From the NCBI GenBank assembly GCA_013141505.1, contig JABFQX010000010.1, positions 62,001 through 126,000 of the forward strand: DNA of 64,000 nt, written 5' to 3'. The first letter of the stretch is position 1; each line of letters opens with the position of its first letter. The stretch is from Methyloglobulus sp. (GTDB lineage: Bacteria > Pseudomonadota > Gammaproteobacteria > Methylococcales > Methylomonadaceae). The notes below the pieces were generated by a model. That model was not told the DNA's origin. It saw only the letters and a program-made list of their open reading frames with translations, and searched no databases. This document shows, piece after piece, positions 4,236 to 21,996 of this stretch. A program made the translations under genes and the position numbers.

Positions 4236-5035
4236 GTGAGCCTTTTGCCATACGGCTGGAACACATCTGGACAAGTTTCGGGGACAAAGTTGTTCACAAA
4301 GATATTAGCCTTGCCCTGCCAAAAGGTGAAATACTAGGGCTAGTGGGGGCTTCTGGCTGCGGCAAGACTGTGTTATTACGGGAAATTATTGGCTTGCAAA
4401 TTCCCAACAAGGGCGAGATATTTGTGATGGGCGAATCATTGAAGACCCTATCAAGCAGCCACGGCAAGCGATTACGTAATCATTGCGGCGTCCTGTTCCA
4501 AAAGGGCGCATTATTCAGCGTGCTTAACGTTTTCGAGAATATTGCCTTTCCCTTGCGCGAACTGGGTATTAAAGATGAGGAATTCATTAAGCGACTGGTG
4601 TTTATGAATCTTGAAAACGTCGGCTTGTTAGCCAAAGATGCGTGGCTAAAACCGGCGGATTTGTCGGGTGGAATGACCAAGCGCGTTGCCCTTGCCCGCA
4701 CTCTAATTTTGGAGCCTAGCTTGCTATTACTCGATGAACCGACCTCAGGACTTGACCCCATTTCCAGTCAGGATTTTGTCGATTTGCTATCCAGTCTACA
4801 TCGAGACCTTAAATTTACGGTGATTTTAGTGACGCACGATTTAGATATATTACGGGATTTGTGTACTCAGATAGCGGTACTGGCAGACCAGCAGTTGGTG
4901 GCTTTTGGCACATTGGCTAATGTATTGGCTTGCAAACATCCGTTCGTTCAACGCTATTTTCATAACCAGCGTGCCCAGCGTGTGTTCAGCTATCAAGCCC
5001 AACCCAGGACTCAACAAGGACAGCTAAATGGGTAG
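4232..5035 (+). CDS. MlaF-like ABC transporter ATP-binding protein of the MCE system
   Basis: Cytoplasmic ATPase that powers the MCE transporter encoded by its neighbours. At 267 aa it is a normal single nucleotide-binding domain. Walker A is GASGCGKT (39-46), the Q-loop is around FQ at 89-90, the signature is LSGGMTKR (144-151, the GGM form typical of MlaF-type proteins rather than GGQ), Walker B is LLLLDEP (164-170) and the switch His lies in VTHD. The start is GTG 4232, overlapping the stop of the permease gene. The last eight bases overlap the MCE gene, implying translational coupling. Confidence 0.93.
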   Translation: MSEPFAIRLEHIWTSFGDKVVHKDISLALPKGEILGLVGASGCGKTVLLREIIGLQIPNKGEIFVMGESLKTLSSSHGKRLRNHCGVLFQKGALFSVLNVFENIAFPLRELGIKDEEFIKRLVFMNLENVGLLAKDAWLKPADLSGGMTKRVALARTLILEPSLLLLDEPTSGLDPISSQDFVDLLSSLHRDLKFTVILVTHDLDILRDLCTQIAVLADQQLVAFGTLANVLACKHPFVQRYFHNQRAQRVFSYQAQPRTQQGQLNG

Positions 5036-5945
5036 AAATAATCGCGCCTTGCTTACCGGCTTGTTTTTGGTCATCCTGTTAACTTCGACTATCGGTGTCA
5101 TTTATTGGCTGGGCAATCTGGAGCGCGAACGCGATATTTATACTGTTTCGACCCAGGCTTCCGTATCCGGCCTGAATCCTGAGTCCACGGTATTTTATCG
5201 CGGCATTGCCGTGGGCAAGGTACTGGATATCCGGTTCGACCCTAAAAATATGGGCGTGATTCTCATCGGTATCGAAATCGATAAAAATATCGTTCTCAGC
5301 AAAGGTGTTTATGCCACCCTGCATTTAAAAGGCGTGACCGGCCTGACCCAACTGGAACTGGAAGATACTGGAAAAATCACCGATAAACTGCCATCAGGCG
5401 ATGACAATATTGCCAACCGTATCCCCTTAATGCAATCTGTTACCGATAGACTGCTTAACTCTGGTGATGATCTGCTAAAAAAAGCCGACCACCTCATGCT
5501 CCGTTTAAGCAGCTTGCTGAATGAAGAAAATGAAAAGAATATTGTTGGCATACTCGCCAACTTGAAAACCTTGAGCGGCAAACTGGAATCTTTGCAAAAA
5601 AGCGTTGATAACGCGCTGGTTGGAATTCCGGCATTAACTAAAGACGCAAGTAAAACCCTTAAGCATATTGATACTCTGGCTGGCGATTTGCAAAGCCTGA
5701 GTAAAGAGGCAAAGAACCTCAGTAAAAAGGTAAGTACGATTGCCGATACCGGCAATGTTGCTGGTAGCCAGTTTGTACAAACCACTTTACCTAAAGTAAA
5801 CCATTTACTAGCTGACTTACAGGCGACAACAGAACAAGTAAAGCGTATCGCCACAACCCTGGAAAACAACCCGCAATCAGTATTGCTAGGTCCCGAACAG
5901 CAAGAACCCGGCCCTGGCGAACCGGGCTATGAGGAGCCAAAATGA
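5028..5945 (+). CDS. MlaD-family MCE-domain periplasmic protein
   Basis: Membrane-anchored periplasmic component of the lipid transporter. One N-terminal transmembrane anchor (about residues 8-29) precedes a single MCE domain with the typical VSGLNPESTVFYRGIAVGKV stretch (about 45-64). A long helical C-terminus (about 130-280), rich in Leu/Lys/Asp heptads, resembles the needle-forming region of elongated MCE proteins such as PqiB or YebT, though with only one MCE domain. The tail is Pro/Gly/Glu-rich. The gene overlaps its upstream neighbour by 8 bp and the downstream lipoprotein gene by 4 bp (ATGA). At 305 aa it is much longer than E. coli MlaD. Confidence 0.92.
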   Translation: MGRNNRALLTGLFLVILLTSTIGVIYWLGNLERERDIYTVSTQASVSGLNPESTVFYRGIAVGKVLDIRFDPKNMGVILIGIEIDKNIVLSKGVYATLHLKGVTGLTQLELEDTGKITDKLPSGDDNIANRIPLMQSVTDRLLNSGDDLLKKADHLMLRLSSLLNEENEKNIVGILANLKTLSGKLESLQKSVDNALVGIPALTKDASKTLKHIDTLAGDLQSLSKEAKNLSKKVSTIADTGNVAGSQFVQTTLPKVNHLLADLQATTEQVKRIATTLENNPQSVLLGPEQQEPGPGEPGYEEPK

Positions 5946-6511
5946 AAACATTAATGACCCATTTATCTCTCCTAATTTGCTTGATAGTTGCCTTAAGCAA
6001 TTGCAGTATCCTGCCCAAAGCGCAGCCATCGGCAGTGCATGATTTAGGCTACTCTAATTCGGATGCGCCCTCACTCATCAAGGTTCCTAGCCAACAAGCA
6101 CCAATTACTGTCGAAGCATCTAAATGGCTTTTAGATAACCGCATCCGCTATCGGCTGCTGTATGCCGACCCCACCGAGGTGAGATTTTATTCGCTGGATC
6201 GCTGGATCGCTCCACCGCCCGAGCTTTTTGAGCAATTACTCAATGCCAGCGGTAAGCACTGGACTAAAGCACTAACCATTAATCTGCATGTTTTTGAACA
6301 GCAATTCACGATGGCAAAGCAAGCGAAAGTAGTCATGTACTTTACGGCAACGACAACTCACGCCCATGTGGATAAGGTTATTAAGCAGGATTTCCATCTA
6401 CATCTCCCCTGCCCCACGCCCGATGCAAAAGGTGCTGTTAGCGGCTTTACCTTGTTGACCAGACAGGCGATAGATAAGATTCAGGCTTGGCTTGAGGAAA
6501 CACGCGAATAA
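5942..6511 (+). CDS. ABC-type transport auxiliary lipoprotein (PqiC-like)
   Basis: Predicted outer-membrane lipoprotein that completes the MCE transport operon. Proteins of this family (DUF330/ABC_trans_aux, as PqiC) are thought to receive the MCE needle at the outer membrane. The N-terminus is a signal peptide ending VALSNC, so Cys 21 or so is the probable lipidation site; Asn before the Cys is unusual for a lipobox and lowers certainty of lipidation. The fold region includes RIRYRLLYADPTEVRFYSLDRW, given here only as RYRLLYADPTEVRFY, typical of this family. It overlaps the MCE gene by ATGA and is the last gene of the operon. A 150-bp gap to trkA follows. Confidence 0.82.
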   Translation: MKTLMTHLSLLICLIVALSNCSILPKAQPSAVHDLGYSNSDAPSLIKVPSQQAPITVEASKWLLDNRIRYRLLYADPTEVRFYSLDRWIAPPPELFEQLLNASGKHWTKALTINLHVFEQQFTMAKQAKVVMYFTATTTHAHVDKVIKQDFHLHLPCPTPDAKGAVSGFTLLTRQAIDKIQAWLEETRE

Positions 6512-14859: not shown

Positions 14860-17676
14860 ATGCCTAATAAAAGTAATATTGCATCCGTGTTATCCAGGCC
14901 CAATCCACAGAAGCTTATGATTTCCCTGGTTGTATTGGTATTTTTGTCCTTGTCGATGACAAAAATTTGGACGCTTTTTATTTCCGCCAACAGTGACTGG
15001 AGCCACGGCTTTAGCCATCCTCTGGAAGGCTGGGATCATATCGTCACCATGATTGCTGTCGGCATTTGGGCGGCGCAGCTACGCGGAGTCGCCATCTGGA
15101 TGTTGCCCGTGACTTTCGTTAGTGTGATGAGCTTGGGTGGGCTTGCTGGCGCAGCCAGTTTTGCTTTGCCTAGCGCAGAAATTATCATCCTGCTGTCCGG
15201 CTTGGTATTCAGTGTACTGATAGCCCGTAGGGTGCGCTTCAACATCCGTATCAATGTATTGATAGTCGCTTTCTTTGCTTTCTTTCATGGCTATGCCCAC
15301 GGCCAGGAAATATCGGCTTCCGCGAGCTTAATCTCCTACACCGTTGGTTTTGTTTTGGCTACCTTGCTATTACATGGCGCGGGCATATTGGCGGCAAGGT
15401 TGGCGATATTGTCATTCGCATTCTTTATCGGCAGCAACGTCAATGCCCAAGAAAAAGAAAGCACAACGACTGATGTCTCTGAAACCACCGTGACCGCTGA
15501 AGCAAAAAATTCAACGCGCGACAAGAAAGGTTCAGTAGAGCTTGAAGAGATGATTATCACCGAACGCGCTGATTCCCAAGTGGGTATTGCCGACAGTGCA
15601 TCACAGGGTAATATCGGGCAAGCGCAGTTAAAATACCGCCCCATATCGCGACCGGCAGAAATCCTGGAAACCGTACCAGGGCTGATCGCCACCCAGCACA
15701 GCGGTGAAGGCAAAGCTAACCAATATTTCTTGCGAGGCTTTAACCTCGACCACGGCACTGACTTCCTTACTCAAATTGAAGGTGTGCCGGTTAATGAATT
15801 ATCGCATTCGCACGGACAGGGTTGGACAGACACCAACTTCCTGATCCCAGAGCTGGTAGAAACGCTCGACTATAAAAAAGGCAACAATTATGCGGAGAAT
15901 GGTGACTTCTCCAGTACCGGTTCGGCAAACATCCGTTATTTTAAAGAACTACCGCAGAATATTTTTAAATTTACTGGCGGCAGCTATGATTATTTTCGCG
16001 GCTTGGCGGCAGGATCGCATAAGCTCGGTGATGGCAATGTGTTAGGCGCTTTTGAAACCGTACACAACAACGGCCCCTGGACGGTCGGCAACGACTACAT
16101 GAAGTTTAACGGCATACTGCGCTACAGTGAAGAACATCAAGACCACGGCTGGAGCATCACTGGGATGGCATCAAAAGCCGATTGGCGTTCAACCGACCAA
16201 GTACCGTTGGCCGCAGTCAATAACGGTTTAATAGGCCGATTTGATGCATTAGACCCCACCGATGGCGGCAGTAGCCAACGCTACAGCTTGACCGGTGAAT
16301 GGCATCGTCAGGATGCGGAAAGCGAAACCACGTTGATGGCTTATGGTATTTATAACAAGCTGACTTTATTCTCAAACTTTACCTTCTTGTTGGATGATCC
16401 AAACCTTAAAGATCCTGCCACAGGTAGTTACCTTAACGACATCAACCCAACTCAGTTTGGTAGAAATGGCTGTTCGGGCTTGAATACAATGGTCGGCAAA
16501 GGCCAATTCAATCCCTCTATCTTCAACACCTGCGGTGATCAGTTTGGCCAACCGGACGACCGCTGGACAACCGGCTTCAAGGGAACGCACACATTCTTCC
16601 ATAAAATCGGTGATGCCGATTCGGAAACCACTGTCGGGCTGCAAATCCGTAACGACAATATCCAAAACGGCTTGACTAAAACCCACGCCCAAAAAGAATA
16701 CAACATTACCCGCCAGGACAACATCTGGGTCACTAGCATCAGCCCCTACGCAGAAAATAAGACCCGTTGGAATGACTGGTTGCGTACCACTGTAGGCGTT
16801 CGTTTTGATGGCTTCCGCTTTGATGTTAGCAACAGCTCCGGCTTTGATTATAAGAAACGTCCCGAAAATGACGGTGAACGCTACGATGGTTTAGTCAGCC
16901 CCAAACTGGGCATTGTGTTTGGCCCTTGGGCGGACACTGAATTTTATTTAAACGGCGGCTTGGGCTACCACAGCAACGATGCCCGCGGCGTGCTCGCAAC
17001 GGTTGATCCGTCAGATCCAACCGGACAAACTAAAGTTGATCGCGCCACGCCACTTGTTCGCACTTACAGCGCTGAAATCGGTGCGCGTACCACTTGGGTG
17101 AAAGGCTTGCAAAGCACCTTGGCTATTTGGTGGCTGGATATTGATTCAGAACTGATTTTCGTCGGCGATGCTGGCAGTACTGAAGCAGGCCGTCCTAGCC
17201 GCCGCTACGGCCTGGAACTTGCCAACTATTATTCACCAACTGATTGGTTGACTTTCGATGCGGATTTCAGCTTCTCCAAAGCCCGTTTCCGCAATAACGA
17301 AGCTGGCGTAGGCAACCATATACCCGGCTCCGTGGAAACGGTGATTGCTGCAGGTGCCACTTTTCATGACGTATTTGGTGGATTCTACGGTGGCCCTCGG
17401 CTTCGTTATTTTGGCCCTCGTGACTTGGAAGAATCCGGCGATTTTCGTTCGACCGATACCTTGCTGATCTCAGGTACATTAGGCTACGAGATCAACAAAA
17501 ACTTTAGCGTACAAGGCGAAGTTTACAATATCCTGAATCGTGAAGATGACGGCATCACTTATTATTACGATTCCAGATACCCTAACAACAATGGCGGCAT
17601 GACCAGCGGCGGTGATTACCACTTCCACCCCGTTGAACCCGTCAGTTTCCGCTTAGGTTTTACGGCAAAGTTTTAA
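14860..17676 (+). CDS. HupE/UreJ membrane domain fused to a TonB-dependent outer-membrane receptor
   Basis: A 938-aa fusion. Residues about 20-190 are a polytopic HupE/UreJ-type metal permease domain with its conserved motifs: HPLEGWDH (53-60) and HGYAHGQE (143-150). It also has the ending VGFVLATLLLHGAG. The last helix runs into GSNVNAQ, which looks exactly like a signal peptidase site near residue 196. After a Thr/Glu linker comes a full TonB-dependent receptor: a plug (about 225-350) and then a barrel ending in Phe (TAKF). HupE/UreJ proteins move Ni, Co or Cu across the inner membrane, whereas TonB receptors sit in the outer membrane, so the fusion is topologically odd. Processing at the internal site, or a TTG start inside the last helix (near 15393), could release the receptor. 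It begins the metal cluster and ends in a strong terminator. Confidence 0.88.
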   Translation: MPNKSNIASVLSRPNPQKLMISLVVLVFLSLSMTKIWTLFISANSDWSHGFSHPLEGWDHIVTMIAVGIWAAQLRGVAIWMLPVTFVSVMSLGGLAGAASFALPSAEIIILLSGLVFSVLIARRVRFNIRINVLIVAFFAFFHGYAHGQEISASASLISYTVGFVLATLLLHGAGILAARLAILSFAFFIGSNVNAQEKESTTTDVSETTVTAEAKNSTRDKKGSVELEEMIITERADSQVGIADSASQGNIGQAQLKYRPISRPAEILETVPGLIATQHSGEGKANQYFLRGFNLDHGTDFLTQIEGVPVNELSHSHGQGWTDTNFLIPELVETLDYKKGNNYAENGDFSSTGSANIRYFKELPQNIFKFTGGSYDYFRGLAAGSHKLGDGNVLGAFETVHNNGPWTVGNDYMKFNGILRYSEEHQDHGWSITGMASKADWRSTDQVPLAAVNNGLIGRFDALDPTDGGSSQRYSLTGEWHRQDAESETTLMAYGIYNKLTLFSNFTFLLDDPNLKDPATGSYLNDINPTQFGRNGCSGLNTMVGKGQFNPSIFNTCGDQFGQPDDRWTTGFKGTHTFFHKIGDADSETTVGLQIRNDNIQNGLTKTHAQKEYNITRQDNIWVTSISPYAENKTRWNDWLRTTVGVRFDGFRFDVSNSSGFDYKKRPENDGERYDGLVSPKLGIVFGPWADTEFYLNGGLGYHSNDARGVLATVDPSDPTGQTKVDRATPLVRTYSAEIGARTTWVKGLQSTLAIWWLDIDSELIFVGDAGSTEAGRPSRRYGLELANYYSPTDWLTFDADFSFSKARFRNNEAGVGNHIPGSVETVIAAGATFHDVFGGFYGGPRLRYFGPRDLEESGDFRSTDTLLISGTLGYEINKNFSVQGEVYNILNREDDGITYYYDSRYPNNNGGMTSGGDYHFHPVEPVSFRLGFTAKF

Positions 17677-17732: not shown

Positions 17733-17854
17733 ACCTCCGAAATCATCTTTAACGCCTTCCAACTTCTAAAGCCTTTGCTTTACCGGTTATCAAAAGTAAA
17801 CTAAAGCCTGTTTCTTATATCCAATGCTATTTAAAGGTTTACAGAGTGACTATC

Positions 17855-18346
17855 ATGCCCAAACAATTAGCGATTGCCTGTTTTTTCTTGCTGTCATGCC
17901 TGATAGCTTTACCTAGCCAAGCTGAGCCAGCCGCCTTGAAACCTTTTGTTTCTGGAAGTTATCAACAACTACTGGACAGCAACGCCGACAAACCGTTTAT
18001 GTTGGTGATCTGGTCGATTACCTGTTCGTCCTGTCTGAAAGATATGGCTTTATTGAACAAAATGCACAAAACTAATCCCAAGATTAATATGGTTATGTTA
18101 GCAACGGATGACGTGTCTGCAACTGACGACATTCAAAAAATACTCGCGAAAAATGAACTGACCGATCTCGAAAACTGGCTTTTCGCCGACGAAAATCCGC
18201 AAAAATTACGCTATGAGATTGATCCTAAGTGGTACGGAGAACAGCCGCGCACTTATTTTTTCAACAAAAAGCATGAACGGGAAGGAATCAGTGGTGTATT
18301 GTCGCAAGAAGATTATGAAGCCTACTTCAAGAAAATCCTCAATTGA
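17855..18346 (+). CDS. TlpA-like periplasmic thioredoxin-fold protein
   Basis: Small exported thioredoxin-fold protein. A signal peptide (MPKQLAIACFFLLSC, cleavage after SQA) precedes a domain with the redox motif CSSC in WSITCSSCLKDM, about 55 residues from the start. The cis-Pro region appears near EQPRTYFF. Such proteins reduce disulfides or keep metal-binding cysteines reduced in the periplasm. That fits the Cys-rich neighbour encoded next, whose start lies inside the end of this gene. ATG 17855 gives a standard signal peptide; GTG 17846 is the alternative. About 163 aa. Confidence 0.8.
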   Translation: MPKQLAIACFFLLSCLIALPSQAEPAALKPFVSGSYQQLLDSNADKPFMLVIWSITCSSCLKDMALLNKMHKTNPKINMVMLATDDVSATDDIQKILAKNELTDLENWLFADENPQKLRYEIDPKWYGEQPRTYFFNKKHEREGISGVLSQEDYEAYFKKILN

Positions 18347-19634
18347 ATCGCCATGTTCCGAGCAACTTCCACATTTTCAAAATGTGGGCGGACTCGACCA
18401 AAGGCTGGCCTTTTTGTCCGTTATTGCCTGTTGGCTATTCGTCTCAACGCTCCCTGGCTGTTCGTCAGAACCGCTGTTAGGTATCGTCAAGCCTTCGCAA
18501 TTAAAAACCAACACCCCCACCCTTAAGCCTTACTCAATCTCTACTTTGGGTCTGTCCAGTGTTTCTACATTTGATGTCACTGTGGACAATGACATTATTC
18601 ATATAATCGCTGGCGGCAAAATGTCAGCTGATGATAAGCAAGTTAAACTCCATTACACGCGTTCTGATGATGGTGGTCGTCATTGGAACGAGCCTATCGC
18701 CCTTGGGGATCATTTTCCATCAACCATCGCCAGCCGTGGCAATGATATTCAGCTTGCCGCCAAAGACGGACATCTGTTAGCAATATGGCAAACGAAAGGC
18801 GAACTGCCCGGTATGGGGCCAATGGTCAGTGCATATTCCGATGATAATGGCACAACCTGGCAACAAGGCATCAACCCTGCGGCAAACAATACGGGCGACC
18901 AATCGCACCTCGACCTGATTGCCGACAAAAAAAGCCAATTTCATGCCGTCTGGCTTGAAGACCCGGAAGAAAGCGGCTATCAAAGCCTGCGTTATGCGAA
19001 GTCCTCAGATGGCGGCAAACACTGGGACAAACCAACTACACTCGATAACTCAACCTGCTCCTGTTGCTGGAATACCTTTGCCTTATCGCCTGAAAACGAG
19101 CTGAATATTCTCTACCGCAATATGAAACCCCGCGATATGTCGCTTTTGCAATCGACCAATGGCGGTAAAACCTGGCGACCTGCCAGCACGGTTGGTGAAT
19201 TTCATTGGCAGTTTGACGGCTGTCCGCATGTCGGGGGCAATTTAACTTATGCGGGAAAGCACCGGTTACATAGCTTGGTATGGACAGGCGTGGAACAATC
19301 GGCTGGTTTGTATTACCTGTATTCCAAGGACAATGGCGCACACTGGTCAAGCCCTAAAAAAATGGGCAACACGGCTATTCATTCCGATATTGCAGCGCTG
19401 GATGAAAGCCATATCGCAGCGATATGGGATGAGATGGAAGCCGAAGGCACCAGCATTTTTTACGCAAAATCCAACGATAATGGCACAAGCTGGCTAACAC
19501 CGATTCGGTTGACAGCCGCGAGTGCCGCTGCAACCCATCCCAGGTTAATTGCCACAAAACACGGATTTCTGGCATTGTGGACTGAAAAACCCGGTAAGCA
19601 ACCCAGCCAGCTGGCATGGCGGATCCTCAATTAA
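18315..19634 (+). CDS. Asp-box (BNR/sialidase-like) beta-propeller lipoprotein with Cys cluster
   Basis: The product is about 439 aa and overlaps the tlpA-like gene by 32 bp. ATG 18315 has AAGAAG just upstream; the frame extends further 5' but only through the neighbouring gene. A signal segment ends LPGC, a good lipobox. The body contains six Asp-box repeats of the S-x-D-x-G-x-x-W type (SDDGGRHW, SDDNGTTW, SSDGGKHW, STNGGKTW, SKDNGAHW, SNDNGTSW), implying a six-bladed propeller. A CSCCW motif and DGCPH supply four cysteines and a His in mid-protein, unusual for a sialidase and suggestive of metal binding. No evidence for true sialidase activity is seen. The metal-cluster context supports a metal-related role. 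Confidence 0.82.
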   Translation: MKPTSRKSSIESPCSEQLPHFQNVGGLDQRLAFLSVIACWLFVSTLPGCSSEPLLGIVKPSQLKTNTPTLKPYSISTLGLSSVSTFDVTVDNDIIHIIAGGKMSADDKQVKLHYTRSDDGGRHWNEPIALGDHFPSTIASRGNDIQLAAKDGHLLAIWQTKGELPGMGPMVSAYSDDNGTTWQQGINPAANNTGDQSHLDLIADKKSQFHAVWLEDPEESGYQSLRYAKSSDGGKHWDKPTTLDNSTCSCCWNTFALSPENELNILYRNMKPRDMSLLQSTNGGKTWRPASTVGEFHWQFDGCPHVGGNLTYAGKHRLHSLVWTGVEQSAGLYYLYSKDNGAHWSSPKKMGNTAIHSDIAALDESHIAAIWDEMEAEGTSIFYAKSNDNGTSWLTPIRLTAASAAATHPRLIATKHGFLALWTEKPGKQPSQLAWRILN

Positions 19635-19762
19635 TGCTGACATTGCACTCATTGCCGCAACTCTTGATGTAGCCACCAAGTTTTACTGCGACACCCTTGC
19701 TATCAGATATATAATGCTGACAATAAAATTAACCACATAACAGCTTTTCAGGTGCAGACTCG

Positions 19763-20146
19763 ATGACCCTACCCAACGTTACATTTATAGTTAAAGCGCT
19801 ACCCGGCTTAGTGCTAATATCCAGTTTTGCTTTGCCCTTACCGGTGTTTGCCCATGCGATCATGGTTAAATCCCAACCAGTCGGTGACAGCACCGTTGCC
19901 GAATCACCCAAGCAAATAGATGTCTGGTTTAACGACAAAGTGGGCAGCGAATATAAAGCACTGGCGGTCATTGACAGCGCCGGAAAGCGGGTCGATAACA
20001 AAGATATTGGCCAGGAAACCTTTGACCAATCGCATATTTATGTGACCGTTCCGCAACTTACGCCGGGCACTTATACGGTACGGTATCGGGTTGTTTCTTT
20101 AGATACCCATATTGTGACCGGCAAATACAAATTCACCTTAAAATAG
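19763..20146 (+). CDS. copC: CopC-family periplasmic copper-binding protein
   Basis: 127-aa CopC-domain protein, the usual length. The signal peptide probably ends before the His in FAHAIMVKSQP, so the mature N-terminus would start with His, the first ligand of the CopC Cu(II) site. The second conserved cluster is DTHIV, with Asp and His as the other Cu(II) ligands. The beta-barrel core includes VWFNDKV and TPGTYTVRYRVVS. The Met-rich Cu(I) site of PcoC is lacking. This is the strongest indication that the surrounding cluster handles copper. No CopD permease is adjacent; the HupE-type protein downstream may take that place. Confidence 0.9.
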   Translation: MTLPNVTFIVKALPGLVLISSFALPLPVFAHAIMVKSQPVGDSTVAESPKQIDVWFNDKVGSEYKALAVIDSAGKRVDNKDIGQETFDQSHIYVTVPQLTPGTYTVRYRVVSLDTHIVTGKYKFTLK

Positions 20147-20196
20147 CCCGGACACACTCCCAATAATAAATTGCCCACCACGAGGCGCAACACGAT

Positions 20197-20850
20197 ATGA
20201 AATCACTCAGCCCAACACTCTTACTCATTAGCGCACTGTTACTGACCGCGTGTAGCAACCCAGGCTATAACGATAACCCTTCGCAGCAGATGACCAAGGC
20301 AACTGTAGGCTGTCTGGTCGGCACTGATTTCTTTGCCGTGTATTTTAGCGCTTATATCAAGCCGTCGGATGACGCTGCTAAAGCAACAATAGCAAAAGAT
20401 AAAAAAGCATTATTCCGTTCTTATTGCAAAGATATTCCCACCACTGGAACCGCTTTCTTTACGGCTGACCTGGTCGGCAAAGAGCTGCGGGAAACCCCCA
20501 TTAGCATCCGCATAGTGGAACAGGAACTCACCGGGGGTGATGACAGCAAGGCGGAAAACTTCAAAGATATCCGTACCTTGGCAGAAATCCCGGCAAAATT
20601 GTATCCACGTGGGGCAGTAGAAGCACAAGCACAACTCGACAAAAACGGCTATTACGCCTTGTATTTGATGGTAGGCGGCGATGACGCCATCGCTGATGAT
20701 GACAGGATCAGGATTCCTCTGCATGTTGGCGTTGATCCCGATGCAAAACCGATTGGCACCTACATGGCTATGGGCATTGGCGGCATTCTAGGTATTGCTT
20801 TGATTGTTTTCGTGGCCATTCGCTTTATGAGTAGGCGCAACAAGCAGTGA
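20197..20850 (+). CDS. Lipoprotein with C-terminal membrane anchor, unknown function
   Basis: 217 aa. The N-terminal signal ends LLLTAC, a canonical lipobox with Cys at about 19. The C-terminus has a transmembrane helix (GIGGILGIALIVFVAIRF) followed by a basic RRNKQ tail. A lipidated N-terminus plus a C-terminal inner-membrane helix would place the central domain in the periplasm, tethered at both ends. I do not recognise the central domain. It lies 50 bp after copC and 39 bp before the second HupE-type gene, so it is probably part of the metal cluster. Confidence 0.75.
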   Translation: MKSLSPTLLLISALLLTACSNPGYNDNPSQQMTKATVGCLVGTDFFAVYFSAYIKPSDDAAKATIAKDKKALFRSYCKDIPTTGTAFFTADLVGKELRETPISIRIVEQELTGGDDSKAENFKDIRTLAEIPAKLYPRGAVEAQAQLDKNGYYALYLMVGGDDAIADDDRIRIPLHVGVDPDAKPIGTYMAMGIGGILGIALIVFVAIRFMSRRNKQ

Positions 20851-20889
20851 TTTTGCAAATTTTGTTAAGGAAAGACAGGTAATGATGGC

Positions 20890-21996
20890 ATGGCTAAAAA
20901 ACTAATCGGCTTTATTTTTCTGCTTGCACAGATACAAATCGGCCTTGCCCATCCGCCCGGCCTCAGCTCTGCTGACATTACGGTCAAGCCGGAAAGTGTA
21001 GACGCTAAAATAACTTTTGCCGTACAGGATATTGAAGCCTTTGTACCCATGGACAGCGACCAAGACGCTGAAGTGACCACCGCCGAGCGGGATGCTGCAA
21101 AACCCGGAATTTCCACTTACGTCGCTAACGAATTAAAATTCCAGCTTGATGGGGTCGAAACTAAAGCCATAGCCCCCGGCACAGTCAACTTCGACAACCA
21201 AAATAATGCCACGGTTGATTTTCAATTTGCGGGCGCACCCGCTACCTCAATTGGCATTGAGTCCAAGTTCTTGAACAAACTGCCGCCAGGTCACAAACAG
21301 TATGTCACGATCAAAGACGCTAGCGGTCGTGAATTAGGCAAAAAGATGCTGACCCAACAGGCCAACGCCCTTGAAGTCAACCTGAAAACCAGCGCCGAAC
21401 CCGTATCCGCTGAAACCGAAAAGCATTCTACGTCAACTTTCACCGATTTTCTCAAACTGGGCATCGAACATATCCTGACCGGCTACGACCATTTGCTGTT
21501 TCTGTTTTCCCTATTGGTTGTCACTCGAAATGTTTGGCCCGCCATCAAAATTATCACCTTTTTCACCATCGCGCATTCGATCACGTTGGCCTTGGCGGGA
21601 TTGAATATTGTCGATATTCCCAGCACCATTGTTGAACCGCTAATTGCCGCCAGCATCGTTTATGTTGGCCTGGAAAACATTATTCGTGGCGATAAGGTAT
21701 CTACCAAGTCGCGTTGCATTTTGACCTTCTTCTTCGGGTTGATCCACGGCTTTGGCTTTGCTGGCGTACTTCGAGAAATGGGCATTTCGTCTATCGAAAC
21801 CGGAATTCTGGTGCCGCTGTTTTCTTTCAACCTGGGCGTGGAATTGGGACAAATCACCGTCGCATCTATCGTCCTGCCGTTAATCTGGTGGTTACATAAA
21901 AAAGAAGGGGCAAGGCGCTATTTGGTGCCAACCGGATCCACCCTGACTTGCATAGCTGGAACGTATTGGCTACTGGAACGAACAATATTAAGCTAA
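20890..21996 (+). CDS. HupE/UreJ-2 family membrane protein with N-terminal extracytoplasmic domain
   Basis: 368 aa. A signal peptide precedes an exported domain (about 20-180) that includes an EF-hand-like loop, DSDQDAEVTTAE near residues 54-65. The C-terminal half is a polytopic HupE/UreJ_2 domain with GIEHILTGYDHLLFLF, FTIAHSITLALA, FGLIHGFGFA and FNLGVELGQ. The His and Asp residues in these helices are the conserved presumed metal ligands. It is the last gene of the cluster and provides an inner-membrane permease separate from the one fused to the TonB receptor. The substrate is inferred to be a transition metal; copper is favoured by adjacent copC. Confidence 0.87.
   Translation: MAKKLIGFIFLLAQIQIGLAHPPGLSSADITVKPESVDAKITFAVQDIEAFVPMDSDQDAEVTTAERDAAKPGISTYVANELKFQLDGVETKAIAPGTVNFDNQNNATVDFQFAGAPATSIGIESKFLNKLPPGHKQYVTIKDASGRELGKKMLTQQANALEVNLKTSAEPVSAETEKHSTSTFTDFLKLGIEHILTGYDHLLFLFSLLVVTRNVWPAIKIITFFTIAHSITLALAGLNIVDIPSTIVEPLIAASIVYVGLENIIRGDKVSTKSRCILTFFFGLIHGFGFAGVLREMGISSIETGILVPLFSFNLGVELGQITVASIVLPLIWWLHKKEGARRYLVPTGSTLTCIAGTYWLLERTILS

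Follow-up and report, generated by a model that had tools for sequence, protein, structure and literature searches.

Can one gene supply proteins for two different membranes? The question is raised by an open reading frame in the genome of a Methyloglobulus sp. (family Methylomonadaceae; GenBank assembly GCA_013141505.1). The stretch analyzed, here called the window, comprises 64,000 nucleotides of contig JABFQX010000010.1 (positions 62,001 to 126,000 of the forward strand). The frame in question (14860..17676, plus strand) starts with ATG, has 0 internal stops and encodes 938 amino acids, in which a HupE/UreJ permease is followed by a TonB-dependent receptor (TBDT). Excerpts of two papers describe HupE/UreJ proteins as nickel or cobalt permeases that are made as precursors and have six helices in the mature form (PMC4284471, PMC7689651). 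The fusion of the two domains is real. We consider it likely that one precursor gives rise to two proteins in two membranes, which together would carry a metal, most probably nickel, across both.

The initial annotation described a single unbroken frame that holds a HupE/UreJ part with the motifs HPLEGWDH and HGYAHGQE as well as a full TBDT plug and barrel. Analysis of open reading frames and Pfam matches confirmed this description, and no stop or frameshift near the junction is needed in the frame. The Pfam matches score 140.7 bits for HupE_UreJ (PF04955; cut-off 23), 43.2 bits for the plug (PF07715; cut-off 23.9) and 70.8 bits for the barrel (PF00593; cut-off 27), at the positions given in Table 1. 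In the HupE part only positions 21-157 of the 179 in the profile are covered, and the terminal stretch of a normal HupE is swapped for a shorter helix that resembles a signal peptide. HPxxGxDH is named as the HupE signature in an excerpt of one report (PMC7689651). Residues H53, P54, G57, D59, and H60 of the first motif and H143, G144, H147, G148, and E150 of the second are unchanged across 20 aligned fusions, hence the permease half is not decayed.

The fusion recurs in other genomes. A protein search was run in 61 relatives and then in 237 genomes of the Methylomonadaceae, and loci of interest were fetched (L and G numbers are our handles for loci and genomes). One frame with both domains was found at no fewer than 34 loci, in 33 of the 237 family genomes. 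Named strains that carry it are Methylotuvimicrobium buryatense 5G, Methylomicrobium sp. RS1, and Methylomicrobium sp. wino1. A scan of named genomes added four fusions, namely L122 and L124 in metagenome-assembled genomes (MAGs) labelled Nitrosomonas, L132 in a gammaproteobacterial MAG and L134 in a Verrucomicrobiia MAG. Among 196 genomes of the order to which L134 belongs, five have the fusion, four of them new. The fusion occupies 42 distinct loci in all, of which 34 or more are in the family, 4 in the named genomes and 4 in the order of L134. It is therefore not a product of chance, and the possibility that the two domains are always separate genes in related genomes, which the initial annotation had named as fatal to its proposal, is excluded.

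Duplicate copies (L053-L067, L121, L123, L125-L130, and L135) are excluded from the counts of 38 and 42 fusions used here, and L009 is omitted from the HupE tree and the column counts, which hold 37 fusions. Several incomplete loci were counted as fusions: L009 and L070 at contig ends, L105 with a truncated receptor, and L081 and L082 with shortened HupE N-termini. In L105 (G002, 4906-6324) the receptor ends after about 225 residues and is followed by a thioredoxin-like gene; this copy may have decayed, or the assembly may have a gap there. In relatives, HupE and TBDT do occur as adjacent separate genes, and an error of sequencing or assembly could in principle have joined two such genes. This is refuted by the recurrence at 42 loci with the same spacing and site, some of them in genomes of one or two contigs, and the probability of an artefact is practically nil.

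The fusion is rare. A sample of 398 genomes from across the phylum gave a full-length match in the window's own genome only, and others match the receptor or HupE alone. A PF04955 search of 369 genomes of the class returned frames longer than 600 residues from the same genome, one family member and G461. The G461 frame was rejected as a chance frame. Long HupE frames at L115, L116, L119, L120, and L211-L213 were likewise rejected as fusions and are ordinary HupE genes with chance extensions. HupE frames of 449-458 amino acids were observed at L117 and L118.

What joins the two domains has the makings of a signal peptide. In the window fusion, internal n-, h-, and c-regions are present, positions -3 and -1 carry small residues, and the site lies on the predicted periplasmic face; NVNAQ occupies residues 193-197, with a predicted cut after Ala196, between nucleotides 15447 and 15448. 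The cut point lies 24 residues past an ATLLLH anchor. Of 38 fusions, 36 have this distance of 24 residues, one has 23 and another 25; Ala fills position -1 in 37 of them and Gly in the remaining one, and position -3 holds Ala (19), Val (17), Ile (1), or Leu (1). Standalone HupEs extend 32-40 residues from the anchor to the C-terminus in 16 of 17 cases and 22 in the other, as selected by a pattern that admits only ends shorter than 60 residues. Column counts over 37 aligned fusions give Arg ahead of the hydrophobic stretch in 34, Gly at -6 in 30, Val or Ala at -3 in 34, Ala at -1 in 36, and Gln at +1 in 26. An N-terminal Gln after signal peptidase I is said, in one study (PMC5837995), to be a feature of Bacteroidetes. 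A fixed site rule (Ala or Val at -3, Ala or Gly at -1, a hydrophobic stretch ahead, 19-32 residues past the anchor) is passed by 41 of the 42 fusions versus 2 of 17 standalone HupEs; these controls were picked by pattern from fetched loci, are non-random and include the atypical L042 and L091. With its controls, this rule replaces an earlier loose one, which every fusion and every tailed HupE given to it satisfied.

The orientation of the last helix was read from charges. The mean number of Lys and Arg residues per HupE loop alternates (2.59, 0.05, 1.19, 0.05, 2.89, 0.0, and 0.92), and by the positive-inside rule the sixth transmembrane helix (TM6) is therefore predicted to have its N-terminus inside and its C-terminus outside. 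This predicted orientation, from cytoplasm to periplasm, is that of a signal peptide. The ratio of nonsynonymous to synonymous substitution (Ka/Ks), where computable, is 0.03-0.19 for HupE, 0.06-0.14 for plug plus barrel and 0.07-0.55 for the linker; no ratio is given where Ks was not computable, and some ratios are rough, coming from Ks above 1. Because Ka/Ks is low and the HupE signature residues are invariant, both halves are maintained. Recurrence, topology signal, conserved site and selection, like the fusion itself, are computed results. The site counts, the charges around TM6 and the purifying selection support what the initial annotation had proposed, namely cleavage where the last helix ends, which would leave the permease in the inner membrane and let the barrel go to the outer membrane.

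From these results we infer cleavage, localization, transport and the metal in the following way. HupE would be inserted first into the inner membrane. Its TM6 would run from the cytoplasm to the periplasm, double as the signal peptide of the receptor and present the site at the periplasmic face. The receptor would be translocated through Sec. Signal peptidase I would cut after Ala196, HupE would stay in the inner membrane, and a 742-residue receptor beginning at Gln197 would fold into the outer membrane, where its putative TonB box (the TonB-box-like EEMIIT) would be free. One gene would then set a fixed synthesis ratio for both steps of metal import. A fusion that stays uncut, as one periplasm-spanning protein that tethers the receptor to the permease, is very improbable. 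TM6 and plug are connected by a linker of about 35-55 residues, which speaks for such a tether, but the conserved signal-peptidase-like site would then be left purposeless. Moreover, a linker of this length would hardly cross the periplasm, and insertion of the barrel needs a free precursor.

A second alternative is internal initiation near 15388-15400. The receptor would then be made on its own, the last HupE helix would serve it as a regular N-terminal signal peptide, and the long form would be a minor product. The initial annotation had suggested an internal TTG start of this kind. In the window, TTG codons are found at -31, -28, -20, -16, and -13 from the cut, and the signal peptide resulting from initiation at 15388, 20 residues long, would be plausible. 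The signal peptide at the start of the unfused TBDT of G004 (L037) is similar to the fusion junction. However, the 38 fusions have no start-codon position in common: the ATG, GTG, and TTG codons before the site vary, L084 has 0 start-like codons between -46 and -9, and Shine-Dalgarno-like matches in the junction zone are sporadic. Internal initiation is therefore not a conserved route, and the TTG start is unsupported as a general mechanism, although single genes, such as the window's own copy with its TTG at 15388, may use it. A HupE part kept in frame and under purifying selection also counts against it, and we regard it as unlikely.

Several observations weigh against a cleaved precursor. 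The 24-codon junction has a Ka/Ks of 0 to 0.54, looser than the domains. L122 fails the fixed site rule (Ile at -3), and L124 passes it only two residues beyond the presumed site, where Leu is found at -3. By a looser rule, 23 of 23 tailed, unfused HupEs end in such sites, and thus the signal-peptidase-like site is not unique to fusions. In L081 (G195, wino1; the same as L126) and L082 (G113) the HupE N-terminus is shortened in frame, and the N-terminal HupE helix may be lost or broken. An AlphaFold2 model of HupE only (17 sequences; predicted local distance difference test, pLDDT, 83.1) makes residues 157-199 a single helix in which TM6 continues TM5. Such a merged helix would fit a TM6 that is unpacked from the bundle, or it may be a modeling artefact. 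As for the six helices expected after the signal helix, the charge pattern fits them, but the profile match stops at position 157 of 179, and the AlphaFold2 model, in which TM5 and TM6 are merged, does not confirm them.

The AlphaFold2 model of the whole fusion (27 sequences; mean pLDDT 76.7) contains a helical HupE part, a plug and a barrel, and pLDDT falls below 50 at residues 184-237. Among the best 50 matches listed, the closest solved folds of the receptor are PqqU (PDB 9c4o, TMt 0.82) and YncD (6v81, TMt 0.80), which differ from it in sequence (17% and 16% identity), have no permease and carry other cargo. Further matches on this list include Fiu, FhuE, FecA and, lower down, the copper receptor OprC, at 11-17% identity. 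When solved structures were searched by sequence, neither the HupE half nor the receptor half had a match.

Which metal would be carried? Nickel is the likeliest cargo, as judged from the genes around unfused relatives of the receptor. On plasmid pHG1 of Cupriavidus necator, such a relative lies 4.4 kb from hoxN. On pHCG3 of Afipia carboxidovorans it stands beside nikR and near hypD, hypE, and hypB, and on a Methylomagnum plasmid it is directly downstream of nikR. The nikR gene is present at 12 of 65 named distant loci with unfused receptors, one of the 12 (L149) being a 26-residue match. Within the family, the gene order at L038 is nikR, tailed HupE, receptor, and HupE_UreJ_2. The fusion points to a likely nickel receptor family in methanotrophs and other bacteria. 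The window's genome encodes urease, about 1.6 kb from a standalone HupE, and so has a use for nickel. By eye, from translations, the unfused receptor at L157 was seen near genes resembling NiFe hydrogenase subunits and that at L189 near a gene resembling a hydrogenase small subunit.

Other results argue against nickel. The nikR-linked relatives are only about 39-48% identical to the receptor of the window. Within the stretch examined around each of 38 fused loci, nikR is found at none. A NikR_C match is present in 3 of 33 fused family genomes (G006, G123, and, weakly, G007), and a NikR_C search of the window's genome found none. NiFe hydrogenase is found in 0 of 8 genomes of the window's genus, and its presence in 15 of 33 fused genomes versus 80 of 237 of the family gives no strong link. 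A CopC gene follows the fusion in the window's genus, which points to copper. A polyprotein like the one proposed here, carrying copper or cobalt instead, appears doubtful. In favor of it, the second permease gene HupE_UreJ_2 also follows the fusion in the genus, the window's genome is without a match to NikR or NiFe hydrogenase, and excerpts of the literature (PMC4284471, PMC7689651) assign cobalt import to the HupE of Synechocystis. Against it, the receptor family is repeatedly found beside nikR, hyp, or hoxN, and elsewhere the fused gene is without the CopC gene set in the stretch examined. A search of the window with Rfam returned 0 RNA families, hence there is no B12 riboswitch in the window, and this too counts against cobalt or copper. 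The lanthanide receptors LanA and LutH were considered as well, on the basis of excerpts of one paper (PMC12482762).

Unfused relatives bear on the history of the fusion. In other family members, HupE and the receptor are neighboring separate genes, and the HupE has a non-membrane tail of about 130-300 residues. Within the window's genus, the fusion of G007 is immediately preceded by a tailed HupE (L033), and in G004 (L037) a tailed HupE is followed by the unfused receptor with the junction-like signal peptide mentioned above, which suggests that a fused ancestor of the G004 receptor lost its permease part. The tails are poorly conserved except for the motif L[ST]NGVGxTSPP, which is found exactly or nearly so in 15 of 24 tails (L035, L036, L037, L040, L041, L090-L097, L100, and L102), in some of them twice; the tails of L033, L034, and L038 carry looser variants. 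The codons of the motif differ among genomes and it therefore looks selected as protein. A second, partial receptor of 256 amino acids with the barrel end only was noticed about 6 kb from the intact one at L036 (3006-3776, minus strand).

Two trees, both from quick searches, were compared. The receptor tree has 128 rows, 37 of them fused, and the distribution of the fused label on it takes a minimum of 8 changes, of which starred branches force 5. The HupE tree has 71 rows, and 3 changes are required there to account for fused versus all other rows; support is modest, with 12 of 63 inner branches starred. Fused and tailed HupEs are separated from the nine that are genuinely standalone (support 89, without a star); one of the ten rows labelled standalone, L038_S, is the tailed HupE of the same locus. 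The four fusions from the order of L134 are in neither tree. A second receptor subfamily, about 41% identical, is fused in six loci. The permeases of five of these fusions fall in a starred group with the window's genus and that of the sixth, L087, lies elsewhere. From this comparison of the trees, we infer that receptors of the second subfamily were probably joined to a permease of this kind on two or more occasions, by receptor swapping. In a Vicinamibacterales MAG (L192, JAMQPK010000043.1, 1985-5926, plus strand), a 1314-residue frame was observed that joins an M56 peptidase-like part, a NicO-like part and a TBDT of the same family. The NicO-like nickel permease part scores 24.5 bits, under the cut-off of 27.7 (E 2e-05), and a STSAGAQ-like site precedes the receptor part. 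L192 may be a fusion that arose independently, with a different family of permeases. The search for further copies of this arrangement in its family covered its own genome only.

In the window, the fusion is followed by a set of genes (17846-21996; Table 1). All or some of them are found again next to fused as well as unfused receptors. L122 and L124 were seen to have the same downstream set as the window's genus. The true start of the BNR-repeat gene is probably downstream of 18213, as its frame overlaps the preceding gene. Searches of the downstream proteins against PHROGs (two proteins) and NCBIfam (four proteins) gave no family. CopC and HupE_UreJ_2 may constitute a separate copper system. 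At nine other fused loci the neighbors mostly look unrelated by eye, with L048 adjoining a HupE_UreJ_2 gene. The fused gene can thus apparently act alone, as a self-contained uptake unit. The upstream stretches of 12 fusions, compared by eye, have no common regulatory site.

Table 1. The fusion gene, its parts and the genes downstream of it, in window coordinates.
Feature	Position	Strand	Evidence
Fusion gene, HupE/UreJ permease and TBDT	14860..17676	+	Open reading frame, Pfam, recurrence at 42 loci
N-terminal hydrophobic helix, residues 16-41, where the HupE signal peptide sits	14905..14982	+	Hydropathy; AlphaFold2 helix 16-41
HupE/UreJ domain PF04955, residues 46-182	14995..15405	+	Pfam, 140.7 bits
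HupE signature HPLEGWDH (HPxxGxDH), residues 53-60	15016..15039	+	Sequence, fusion alignment
Second HupE motif HGYAHGQE, residues 143-150	15286..15309	+	Fusion alignment
In-frame TTG, residue 177; probably the internal start of the initial annotation	15388..15390	+	Not conserved
Last HupE helix, residues 180-196, ending in signal-peptidase-I-like NVNA before Q	15397..15447	+	Junction rule, loop charges
Linker and predicted N-terminus of mature receptor	15448..15609	+	Alignment; AlphaFold2 pLDDT < 50 at residues 184-237
TonB-box-like EEMIIT, residues 229-234	15544-15561	+	Alignment; similar residues in other fusions
TBDT plug PF07715, residues 251-354	15610..15921	+	Pfam
TBDT beta-barrel to residue 938 (PF00593 match 471-891)	16270..17673	+	Pfam, AlphaFold2 strands, fold match PqqU 9c4o
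Thioredoxin-like protein	17846..18346	+	Weak PF13905, below cut-off; same order in genus relatives
BNR-repeat protein	18213..19634	+	Pfam
CopC-domain protein (PF04234)	19763..20146	+	Pfam
217-amino-acid protein, conserved within the gene set	20197..20850	+	No Pfam, NCBIfam or PHROGs match
HupE_UreJ_2 protein (PF13795), second unfused permease-like protein	20890..21996	+	Pfam

The components of the fusion are known. With HupE/UreJ permeases (PF04955) it shares the domain, the HPxxGxDH signature, the N-terminal signal-like helix and the expected charge pattern of the helices. The standalone proteins examined end soon after their last helix, whereas the TM6 of the fusion is shorter, carries the signal-peptidase-like site and runs into the receptor. 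TBDTs linked to nikR, hyp, or hoxN have the same plug and barrel (about 39-48% identity to the window's receptor part), but they are separate genes, and in the fusion the last helix of the permease stands in for their signal peptide. In Bradyrhizobium, the cytochrome b/c1 precursor FbcH contains a membrane protein and an exported protein that are separated at an internal signal-peptidase site. The fusion would likewise be one precursor with an internal signal-peptidase site. The products of FbcH share one membrane complex, whereas those of the fusion would reach two different membranes. A search of the literature (open-access, with few subscription journals) on HupE/UreJ proteins with TBDTs, on TonB-receptor fusions or polyproteins, on nickel receptors and on internal signal peptides did not find the arrangement described.

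We give slightly better than even chances to a broader proposal. It holds that the gene encodes a two-membrane polyprotein in which the last helix of the permease is the signal peptide of an outer-membrane receptor, that this polyprotein has been kept in lineages of at least two phyla, that receptors of the second subfamily joined such a permease on two or more occasions, and that the gene supplies both import steps in a fixed ratio. If true, an outer-membrane barrel can take its export signal from a transmembrane helix of a permease, and the gene would be a clean test system for the action of signal peptidase inside a polytopic protein. Methods of annotation and localization that assign one compartment per protein would misplace such genes. 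For the bacteria that carry it, one gene would supply both membrane steps of import by means of a precursor that is cut.

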